Shown: positions 2,299-4,398 of the stretch, in pieces
Numbering within the stretch: the stretch's first letter is position 1
Layout: each line of letters begins with the position of its first letter
NCBI GenBank assembly: GCA_900317425.1
Contig: ONGR01000015.1
Location: 1 to 45,735, forward strand
DNA: 45,735 bases
Reading direction: 5' to 3'
From: an uncultured Eubacteriales bacterium
GTDB taxonomy: Bacteria; Bacillota; Clostridia; Oscillospirales; Oscillospiraceae
Translations under genes and position numbers: made by a program
Notes under the pieces: generated by a model
Seen by the model: only the letters and a program-made list of their open reading frames with translations
What the model was told of the DNA's origin: nothing
Databases searched by the model: none

Positions 2299-2327
2299 TT
2301 GACAGAATTCTGTCAATCGGTTATAAT
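2299..2327 (+). promoter_or_regulatory. Consensus promoter with perfect 18-bp palindromic operator
   Basis: TTGACA (2299-2304) and TATAAT (2322-2327) are both perfect consensus boxes with 17-base spacing. The -35 box is the left arm of the perfect palindrome TTGACAGAATTCTGTCAA (2299-2316). A homodimeric repressor bound there would block RNA polymerase, so the downstream lipid operon is predicted to be strongly expressed when derepressed. The regulator is not identified. The palindrome differs from the Rex and FapR consensus sites as I know them. Confidence 0.8.
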
Positions 2328-2374
2328 CTCTTGTTGTATGATTATGACCCGATTGGAAGGAGAATTCGACCATT

Positions 2375-3565
2375 ATGGATATTCTGGCAAAGTGCTATGA
2401 GCCTTCCCTGGCCAAGGAGTTGAAGGAGAAGGGTATCTACCCCTATTTTCATGCCCTGGAATCCCGCCAGGACGTGGAGGTCACGATGGAGGGCAAGCGC
2501 CGCATCATGCTGGGCTCTAACAACTATCTGGGCCTGACCATCCACCCCGAGATCATTGAGGCCGGCATCAAAGCCCTGGAGCGTTACGGCACCGGTTGCT
2601 CCGGCTCCCGTTTCCTCAACGGCACGCTGGAGATGCACCTGGAGCTGGAGGAGGAGCTGGGCAAGTTCCTGCGCAAGCCCGGCATCGTCACCTTTGGCAC
2701 CGGCTTCCAGTCCAACGTGGGCATCATCACCGCTCTGGTGGGCCGCCACGACTATATGATCTGCGACAAAGAGAACCACGCCAGCATCTACGCCGGCTGC
2801 CAGATGAGCTACGGCAAGATGCTCCGCTACCGTCACAGCGACATGGACGCTCTGGAGAAGTGCCTGCAGAAGGTGCCGGAGGACCACGGCGCTCTGATCA
2901 TCACCGACGGTGTGTTCTCCATGGGCGGCGACATTGCCAAGCTGCCGGAGATCTGCGCCCTGGCCAAAAAGTACGGCGCCCGGGTCATGGTGGACGACGC
3001 CCACGGTCTGGGCGTCCTGGGCGAGGGAGGCCGCGGCACCGCCAGCTACTTCGGCCTGGAGGATCAGGTGGACATCTATATGGGCACCTTCTCCAAGTCT
3101 CTGGCCTCTCTGGGCGGCTATATGGCCGCCAGCGCAGAGGTGGCCGACTTCGTGCGCCACAGCTCCCGTCCCTTCATCTTCTCCGCCTCCATCCCGCCGG
3201 CCAACTGCGCCACGGCCCTGGCCGCCCTGCGCTACCTGGAAGCCCATCCGGAGCTGCCGGAGCGGCTGAAGGAGCTGAGCCTCTATGCCAGACGCGGCAT
3301 GACGGAGCGGGGCCTGACCATCCGGGAGAGCGCTCTGAACGTCCCCACTCCCATCATTCCCATCTATACTTACGAGACCTATCGGACGCTGGACGTGGCC
3401 GCCAAGATCTACGACCGGGGCGTCTACGTGAATCCCACGCTGCCCCCCGCCACCCCGGAGGGCGAGGCCCTGCTGCGCACCAGCTATATGGCCACCCATA
3501 CCGAGGCCCTGCTGGATGAGGCCATGGATATCATTGCCGACGTGATGGTGAACGAACATGAGTAA
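2375..3565 (+). CDS. Alpha-oxoamine synthase, serine palmitoyltransferase-like
   Basis: This 396-residue PLP-dependent fold-type I enzyme condenses an amino acid with an acyl thioester and releases CO2. The N-terminal GIYPYFHALES segment, NNYLGL, GTGCSGSRFLNGT and SMGGDIAKLPEI closely resemble bacterial serine palmitoyltransferases, including those of Bacteroidetes as I remember them. Visible catalytic residues are H135 (KENHASI), D207 and H210 (VDDAHGLG) and the PLP lysine K241 (GTFSKSLAS). Each is offset by exactly 24 from H159/D231/H234/K265 of the Sphingomonas enzyme. The Sphingomonas R378 position reads Leu here (TLPPATP), while the conserved LLR arginine (R368) is kept. AAGGAG (2357-2362) precedes the ATG. 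The start of the reductase gene overlaps its stop. Alternatives are a KBL, BioF or cysteate acyltransferase relative; the absence of threonine dehydrogenase or bio genes argues against the first two. Confidence 0.82.
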   Translation: MDILAKCYEPSLAKELKEKGIYPYFHALESRQDVEVTMEGKRRIMLGSNNYLGLTIHPEIIEAGIKALERYGTGCSGSRFLNGTLEMHLELEEELGKFLRKPGIVTFGTGFQSNVGIITALVGRHDYMICDKENHASIYAGCQMSYGKMLRYRHSDMDALEKCLQKVPEDHGALIITDGVFSMGGDIAKLPEICALAKKYGARVMVDDAHGLGVLGEGGRGTASYFGLEDQVDIYMGTFSKSLASLGGYMAASAEVADFVRHSSRPFIFSASIPPANCATALAALRYLEAHPELPERLKELSLYARRGMTERGLTIRESALNVPTPIIPIYTYETYRTLDVAAKIYDRGVYVNPTLPPATPEGEALLRTSYMATHTEALLDEAMDIIADVMVNEHE

Positions 3566-4349
3566 GGTAGCGATCGTCACCGGAGGAACCTCCGGTATCG
3601 GAAAAGAAACGGCTCTGGCACTGCAGGCTGACGGCTATACCGTCTATGAGCTGAGCCGCCGCGCCGAGGGCGTGGCCGGCATGCGCCATATCCCCACGGA
3701 CATTACCAAAGAGGATATGGTGAACGCCGCCGTGGCAAAGGTGGTGGAGCAGGAGGGGCATATCGACGTCCTGGTGAACAACGCCGGCTTCGGCATTTCC
3801 GGCGCTATCGAGTTCACCAAAACCGAGGAGGCCAAGCGGCTCTTTGACGCCAATTTCTTCGGCATGGTCAATATGAACCGGGCGGTGATCCCCGTCATGC
3901 GTCAGCAGGGGAGCGGCCGCATCGTGAACCTCAGCAGCGTGGCGGCCCCCATCCCGATCCCGTTCCAGGCCTACTATTCCGCCACCAAGGCGGCGGTGAA
4001 TGCCTACACCATGGCCCTGGGCAATGAGCTGCGGCCCTTCGGCGTCACCGTCTGCGCGGTGCAGCCCGGCGATATCAAAACCGGCTTTACCGCCGCCCGG
4101 GAGAAGGTCATCGAGGGAGACGACGTGTACGACGGCCGCATCGCCCGCAGCGTGGGCCGCATGGAGCACGACGAGCAGACCGGCATGGACCCGGCTGTGG
4201 CAGGCAGGTTCATTGCAAGCGTGGCCCGGAAGCGGTCCGTCAAGCCCATCTATACCATCGGTTTTTCCTACAGTCTCTTCACCTTCCTGGTGCGGATCCT
4301 GCCCACCCGGACGCTGAACTGGCTGGTGGGACTGCTGTACGCCAAATAA
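3558..4349 (+). CDS. Short-chain dehydrogenase/reductase, 3-ketosphinganine reductase-like
   Basis: The 263-residue classical SDR has the cofactor motif TGGTSGIG (residues 8-15), NNAG, and the Ser-Tyr-Lys catalytic set (NLSSVA and YSATK). The last 35 residues (IGFSYSLFTFLVRILPTRTLNW...) are hydrophobic with basic residues and could sit on the membrane, as in FVT1/KDSR-type reductases. Its ATG overlaps the upstream stop in ATGAGTAA, so translation is coupled to the alpha-oxoamine synthase. From context the substrate is inferred to be the 3-keto product of that synthase, giving a sphinganine- or capnine-like amino alcohol. The SDR fold alone does not prove substrate. A strong terminator follows, so the operon has two genes. 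Confidence 0.78.
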   Translation: MSKVAIVTGGTSGIGKETALALQADGYTVYELSRRAEGVAGMRHIPTDITKEDMVNAAVAKVVEQEGHIDVLVNNAGFGISGAIEFTKTEEAKRLFDANFFGMVNMNRAVIPVMRQQGSGRIVNLSSVAAPIPIPFQAYYSATKAAVNAYTMALGNELRPFGVTVCAVQPGDIKTGFTAAREKVIEGDDVYDGRIARSVGRMEHDEQTGMDPAVAGRFIASVARKRSVKPIYTIGFSYSLFTFLVRILPTRTLNWLVGLLYAK

Positions 4350-4358
4350 GATGCACGT

Positions 4359-4398
4359 AAAAAAGTGCGCGGATTGTTGCTTCCGCGCACTTTTTTCT
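4359..4398 (+). terminator. Terminator of the lipid-synthesis operon
   Basis: A perfect 15-bp stem (4359-4373 / 4382-4396, core GTGCGCGGA/TCCGCGCAC) with an 8-base loop ends in six T. Its A-rich left arm could also stop transcripts entering from the convergent gene on the other strand. Confidence 0.85.

Follow-up and report, generated by a model that had tools for sequence, protein, structure and literature searches.

A serine palmitoyltransferase-like synthase paired with a reductase in Clostridia: a probable route to sphingoid bases

We analyzed a stretch of 45,735 nucleotides (the window; contig ONGR01000015.1 of assembly GCA_900317425.1) from an uncultured Eubacteriales bacterium and focused on a two-gene unit at positions 2299-4396, in which the gene of a serine palmitoyltransferase (SPT)-like synthase is followed by that of a short-chain dehydrogenase/reductase (SDR). 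We consider it probable that the two genes of this unit account for the opening two steps in making sphingoid bases de novo, leading through 3-ketosphinganine to sphinganine, and probably on to dihydroceramide, in Clostridia. In the proposed pathway, the synthase, carrying pyridoxal 5'-phosphate (PLP) on K241, would condense L-serine with a long-chain acyl thioester, either acyl-coenzyme A (acyl-CoA) or an acylated acyl carrier protein (acyl-ACP), to give 3-ketosphinganine and CO2. The co-translated SDR would then reduce 3-ketosphinganine to sphinganine with NAD(P)H, and a GNAT-family protein encoded elsewhere in the genome (G000:C17:49952-51073) would probably N-acylate sphinganine to dihydroceramide. 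We infer lipid production itself, and any headgroup that such a lipid might carry, from the gene content. The source genome falls into the genus of Vescimonas fastidiosa (Oscillospiraceae, Clostridia), and the Vescimonas type strains are cultured faecal isolates.

Both open reading frames (ORFs) and their 8-base overlap lie where a preliminary description of this DNA had placed them, and the interval that it drew has meaningful ends: its first bases are the TTGACA box of a perfect promoter, and its last are the T-run of a hairpin. The elements of the unit are as follows.

2299-4396, plus strand: apparent single transcription unit, with a promoter at one end and a terminator-like hairpin at the other
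2299-2327, plus strand: perfect sigma-A-type promoter, with TTGACA at 2299-2304, a spacer of 17 and TATAAT at 2322-2327 (read from the sequence)
2375-3565, plus strand: SPT-like PLP-dependent alpha-oxoamine synthase of 396 amino acids (NCBIfam, PDB, tree, residues)
3558-3565, plus strand: overlap ATGAGTAA of the SDR start and the synthase stop, 8 bases (ORF coordinates, sequence)
3558-4349, plus strand: SDR of 263 amino acids with a predicted 3-ketodihydrosphingosine reductase (KDSR) role (NCBIfam, triad, co-occurrence, predicted structure)
4365-4396, plus strand: intrinsic-terminator-like hairpin, with stem GTGCGCGGA at 4365-4373 and TCCGCGCAC at 4382-4390, then six T (read from the sequence)

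Among the NCBIfam models, the synthase matched best the Bacteroidota SPT model NF047600 (SerpalmtaseCFB; 495 bits, E 1e-148), and it scored lower with another SPT model (375 bits) and with those for KBL (371), BioF (361), ALAS (238) and autoinducer synthase (176). The best PDB match was the S. multivorum SPT (3a2b/8guh; 403 bits, E 1e-119), followed by the Sphingomonas SPT (293 bits), a protein bearing both names, BioF and KBL (261), KBL (at most 252), CFAT 28eh (228) and BioF (at most 200). A chance match is discounted by the 495 bits against the Bacteroidota model together with the recurrence of the pair in other genomes.

We placed the synthase in a maximum-likelihood tree of 72 rows that held proteins from Bacteroides, Prevotella, Parabacteroides, S. 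multivorum, Sphingomonas, Roseomonas, Aureispira, Rubrobacter and Priestia as well as KBL and BioF; CFAT/SulA were compared by their diagnostic residue and lower PDB score only, and ALAS by model score only. An SPT clade of 56 rows (support 100/100) contained the window synthase, the S. multivorum and S. paucimobilis enzymes and the Bacteroides SPT, with KBL and BioF outside. A KBL or BioF identity was rejected on this ground, and the preliminary assignment as an SPT-like enzyme was upheld: the tree supports membership in the broad bacterial SPT clade, for which activity on serine and a long-chain acyl thioester is predicted. Within the clade, 48 rows group together (97/81): four are Bacteroidota SPTs, and most of the other 44 come from the phylum of the window. 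Those 44 are united with weak support (89/72), and two further clostridial rows, L229 and L230, are not among them. Two proteins on contigs titled Kiritimatiellae nested next to the genus of the window (99/96), suggesting that the gene moved between phyla, with wrong binning as an alternative. On a contig of that title whose SPT lies beside the Vescimonas clade (L097:8001-10150), we also observed an epimerase-type NAD-dependent reductase ORF that starts at the SPT stop, a CerR-like place, instead of a classical SDR. A further SPT-clade synthase, 47.6% identical, was seen on a Priestia megaterium plasmid (CP109762.1; L128:4723-7215), where a methyltransferase gene and a gene of the acyltransferase family are oriented divergently to it and the 13 kb inspected contain no annotated SDR.

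In the alignment, the active-site residues N49, H135, D207, H210, K241, A271 and R368 correspond to the SPT set, in which the first position may be Asn or Tyr, H135 is the stacking His, K241 the PLP lysine and R368 the Arg for the carboxylate. The catalytic residues H135, D207, H210 and K241 are all offset by 24 from H159, D231, H234 and K265 of the Sphingomonas SPT (chain 2jgt), exactly as first described. Position 271 is Ala in 56/56 SPT-clade rows and Thr or Asn in the other 16. In a passage of PMC9304779, Lys281 of SulA is reported to distinguish enzymes that use cysteate from SPT, which has Ala there; Ala271 at this position argues against cysteate as the substrate. The preliminary description had left the amino acid open on the ground that the position of Sphingomonas R378 reads Leu. 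The residue was read correctly (L356), and yet the argument falls, since the Bacteroidota SPTs of Bacteroides, Prevotella, Parabacteroides and S. multivorum have Ile or Val there and also lack the Arg; the position is therefore silent on the substrate, and we rejected any deduction from it.

Taken together with the alignment, serine is most likely the amino-acid substrate, and alanine or glycine are possible too. An SPT relative that uses alanine or glycine would make 1-deoxy or 1-desoxymethyl long-chain amino alcohols, not true sphingoid bases, and we regard this as unlikely, at roughly one chance in several. The residues tested cannot fix the amino-acid choice with certainty, the nearest outgroups in the tree are KBL- and BioF-type enzymes, and Spt is described as also able to use alanine or glycine in a section of a review (PMC10191378); however, both the catalytic and the carboxylate-binding positions match those of serine enzymes, and the Ala271 of the whole SPT clade is replaced in the 16 other rows.

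For the SDR, the best of 219 matched NCBIfam models was the 3-ketodihydrosphingosine reductase model NF049977 (241 bits). The protein has the motifs TGGTSGIG and NNAG and the residues S127, Y140 and K144, and the key residues were invariant in an alignment of eight relatives. It combines the Ser-Tyr-Lys triad, the nucleotide motif and the linkage to an SPT gene that would be expected of a KDSR role. The "hydrophobic tail" noted previously was recovered in the predicted structure (predicted local distance difference test score 92.8) as a pair of helices at the C-terminus (236-247 and 250-261) that probably lie at the membrane. We hold the claim at a protein that would work like a 3-ketosphinganine reductase, rather than a member of that family, and its substrate is predicted accordingly from these features and its partner gene.

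The genomes are stronger evidence for the role of the SDR than its sequence. In the window's genus and nearby, the synthase was found at 65% identity or more in 24 of 60 genomes (our own counted, and one partial), and the SDR gene comes next after it in 23 of these 24 loci; the exception is L018, from a genome (G035) with the SDR on another contig. The same sort of synthase/SDR overlap was observed in several same-genus relatives, and we infer translational coupling of the two genes at ATGAGTAA. In an even draw of 391 genomes from the class, 65 had a match at E<=1e-90; 50 of them (our own counted, two partial) were SPT-like at 49% identity or more, and the other 15, which are 40-43% identical, were left out of the tree. 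A draw of 398 genomes from the phylum gave 32 matches, 19 of which, besides our own, were 51-68% identical; the two draws share genomes, and their counts are not summed. A scan of named genomes matched at least 598 stretches, with 568 confirmed; the 80 best of these share about 70-90% identity and came mostly from gut or rumen Clostridia metagenome-assembled genomes.

We measured co-occurrence by running a profile of eight such SDRs on whole genomes. In a set of 38 genomes from the window's genus and its surroundings (without G025, whose partial synthase precedes an SDR and which was also left out of the GNAT comparison below), a good SDR match was present in 23/23 synthase-positive and 2/15 negative genomes, and the scores fell into two clear groups, <=1e-111 and >=1e-37. 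The two negatives with an SDR were G015, which has the SDR alone, and G008, whose synthase may have been cut off, since its SDR sits at a contig start. Farther away, the SDR was found in 65/69 synthase-positive and 2/66 negative genomes (G054 and G059) at E<=1e-45, a line set after the scores had been seen, as the scores grade at this distance; the 66 negatives are not a random draw, and a negative has either no synthase match at E<=1e-60 or only 40-43% matches at E<=1e-90. The four misses were G126, G180 and G719, with none at 1e-36, and G269 (2e-38); G719 was kept among the 69 positives though it has Thr at 271 and lies outside the SPT clade. Pooled, the SDR accompanied the synthase in 88 of 92 positive genomes versus 4 of 81 negatives (Fisher p 9e-39), counts that are uncorrected for relatedness, related genomes not being independent. 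Beyond the window's genus, a genome with both proteins is found in 24 of 26 families.

In 48 of the 69 farther positives, the best SDR adjoins the synthase, downstream on the same strand in 15, divergent in 21, convergent in 8 and upstream on the same strand in 4; in the remainder it is on another contig (16), far off on the same contig (2) or absent (3). Adjacency reached in four ways suggests that the genes likely work together, and the pairing whose conservation had been in question is well borne out. We also called the neighborhoods of 118 non-redundant loci, the window included, with a codon-scored gene caller that misses some genes (L081, for example, is paired by tblastn and not by the caller). 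The SDR lay directly downstream on the same strand in 73 of these loci and did not in 39; 6 loci are cut off. A larger lipid operon was considered and rejected, as the SDR is the only gene family found repeatedly at a constant position next to the synthase. The next commonest neighbors were ABC-transporter ATPases, near in 13 loci in mixed places and on mixed strands, and a regulator gene upstream in 6; the one regulator checked (L044:6859-7242, directly 5' of the synthase) is of the MarR family and may sense acyl-ACP or lipid.

Upstream of the synthase start, within 140 bases, a zero-mismatch TTGACA-(17 or 18)-TATAAT was present in 15/15 of the closest same-genus loci (the window counted), in a scan that permitted spacers of 16-18 and with chance frequency not part of the figure. 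Three more distant same-genus loci had the promoter with one mismatch. By eye, the hairpin at the other end of the unit is GC-rich and closed by a T-run. A perfect promoter suggests steady, high expression. A 20-base palindrome covering the -35 box (ATTGACAGAATTCTGTCAAT) was considered as an operator and rejected, because the window alone has it among the 15 closest loci.

These neighborhoods bear on a second alternative, in which the product of the pair is not a membrane lipid but a small long-chain amino alcohol that serves as a signal or secondary metabolite, as with synthases of the CqsA/LqsA type or those linked to a polyketide synthase. No membrane-lipid gene other than the reductase recurs as a neighbor, the 5' regulator of six loci would suit such a product, and bacterial sphingolipids linked to polyketide synthases are described in part of PMC12134224. 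On the other hand, the autoinducer-synthase model scored 176 bits against 495 for SPT, the window has no polyketide synthase gene beside the synthase, and the expression suggested by the promoter is steady and high; we consider this explanation improbable. Production of a sulfonolipid base (3-ketocapnine, then capnine) from cysteate, in the manner of SulA/CFAT and a ketocapnine reductase, is very improbable: the fold and pathway logic are shared, and ketocapnine-reductase homologues reach a prevalence of 14.4% in Firmicutes and 12.3% in Firmicutes_A in figures from a survey pre-filtered for cysteate synthase and CFAT homologues (PMC11211663), but the window has Ala271 in place of the Lys that marks SulA/CFAT, and the PDB scores were 403 bits for SPT versus 228 for CFAT 28eh.

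A candidate for the third step came from SPT-clade genes elsewhere. The ceramide synthase bCerS is a GNAT. On a Rubrobacter plasmid, an SPT-clade gene overlaps a GNAT gene, and an epimerase-like reductase gene follows, which is the composition of the Spt-bCerS-CerR set; a GNAT of the same family adjoins an SPT-clade gene in Aureispira and, by coordinates, an alpha-oxoamine synthase gene in Streptomyces NBC_01001. The Rubrobacter GNAT as a query found a match in V. fastidiosa (27.7% over 97%, E 9e-27), and the orthologue in the window's genome is 72% identical to that of V. fastidiosa. An alignment of 12 sequences had 21 invariant columns along its length, showing full-length homology to the SPT-associated GNATs, with an identity of 27% to the Rubrobacter protein, 26% to that of Aureispira and 23% to that of Sphingomonas. 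A GNAT of Bacteroides finegoldii, whose genus has SPT, shares 44.5% identity with the Vescimonas protein. Within the own genus, the GNAT was present in 17/18 synthase-positive genomes versus 4/13 negatives (G004, G008, G019 and G022; p 3e-4), a weak match in G012 not being counted among the negatives. In the window's own genome, a 4'-phosphopantetheinyl transferase gene (Pfam) stands divergent beside the GNAT gene, with look-alike ORFs in two relatives, and in G050 (L318:6733-9138) the GNAT gene is followed by a PlsX-family gene (PF02504) and an acyl carrier protein gene; these neighbors fit a user of acyl-ACP. A GNAT profile found no PDB match at E 0.01. From its sequence and company, this protein is a candidate ceramide synthase that would probably N-acylate the base to dihydroceramide. 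Partial pathways were also observed inside one genus: G015 has a KDSR-like SDR (L237:3169-4017) without an SPT match, and G004 and G022 have the GNAT without an SPT or SDR.

Several observations weigh against this reading. The synthase, at 495 bits, falls below the curated cut-off of 640 for NF047600 and is for this reason not filed under that family; for comparison, the Bacteroides SPT (700) and Prevotella SPT (648) pass, and the Sphingomonas SPT (342) fails too. The SDR, at 241 bits, likewise falls below the cut-off of 400 for NF049977, and its lead over the general SDR model PRK06179 (226) is only 15 bits, so sequence alone does not name it. No KDSR was named among the PDB matches inspected for the SDR, by sequence or by fold, and the fold matches are general SDRs. 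In some genomes (e.g., G070, G108, G248 and G413), a second SDR also passed 1e-45, and the best one was used. For the GNAT, stops were flagged within 5 of the 17 matches in synthase-positive same-genus genomes. Outside the genus, where 33 of 74 synthase-positive genomes and 16 negatives were compared, the GNAT gave a strong match in 11 positives, a weak one in 8 and none in 14, and was found in one negative (with stops); strong matches in 11/33 versus 1/16 correspond to p 0.07. The GNATs of G004 and G022, present without the synthase or the SDR, could acylate bases from host or diet, or may have another role. The source genome is a draft of 39 contigs, and a literature search over open-licence papers turned up none that reports SPT or a sphingolipid from a clostridial source.

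The chemistry proposed here is known, and the lineage is unexpected; the apparent novelty lies in the coupled SPT-KDSR unit and in how widely it occurs across Clostridia. According to a 2023 review (PMC10191378), sphingolipids have been detected in bacteria largely among Bacteroidota and some alpha-Proteobacteria, and the predicted Gram-positive producers named in a part of PMC12134224 are Actinobacteria. An extract of PMC11211663 gives counts for Firmicutes homologues of the enzymes of sulfonolipid synthesis, among them CFAT, at an E limit of 1E-20, a limit that may have caught the clostridial SPT-like family without naming it. We lean, by a little, towards the view that Clostridia are a second major and so far unrecognized origin of the sphingolipids made de novo in animal guts, with the SPT-KDSR pair over many families, a ceramide synthase in some genera, and dihydroceramides in a Gram-positive single membrane. 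If so, part of the gut sphingolipid pool attributed to Bacteroidota may be of clostridial origin. Bacterial sphingolipids affect host immunity and metabolism. With SPT-like genes class-wide (50/391), the reductase in nearly all positives and named species in the genus, the clostridial contribution is directly testable. Given these genes, the set counted for sphingolipid capacity in metagenomes would also widen.

Around the unit, a transposase gene pair at 786-2089 (HTH_Tnp_1 and rve integrase core), which we take to be IS3-like, ends about 210 bases 5' of the promoter. The ORF at 237-506, close to the contig end, encodes a RelB-type antitoxin (Pfam RelB), and a 30-amino-acid ORF at 2206-2298 (MEFLTWLFTICGAATLARGVMAVIDVLEKE) stands immediately before the promoter and by eye resembles a one-helix membrane peptide.

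Compared with known systems, the window synthase shares the alpha-oxoamine synthase fold and PLP chemistry of KBL (glycine C-acetyltransferase), BioF and ALAS. KBL and BioF, however, lie outside the SPT clade and have Thr or Asn at 271 where the window has Ala; ALAS is set apart by model score alone (238 bits), and the window's genome carries a separate KBL-type gene, 36% identical to the synthase. SulA/CFAT have the same fold and, in the text seen from PMC9304779, the same active-site set of Arg, Asn, His and Lys, and differ in the diagnostic Lys281, which is Ala271 in the window. With the Caulobacter-type Spt-bCerS-CerR set, the window shares an SPT-clade synthase, and its genome also has a GNAT of the family that adjoins SPT-clade genes in Rubrobacter and Aureispira. 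Its reductase, in contrast, is a classical SDR and not the epimerase-like CerR, and a search of the own genome with the Rubrobacter query, made without a positive control, gave no CerR-like match. Another close system is that of Bacteroidota (S. multivorum 3a2b; BT_0870 type): the synthase is 47-49% identical to Bacteroides-type proteins and falls with them into one tree group (97/81), although both window proteins score under the curated Bacteroidota cut-offs. The same two-step route to sphinganine, with BT_0972 as the KDSR, is described for B. thetaiotaomicron in a passage from PMC9278070. The SPT gene has no annotated SDR as a neighbor in the records of B. finegoldii and Parabacteroides, whereas in the window the SPT and SDR genes form one coupled unit.

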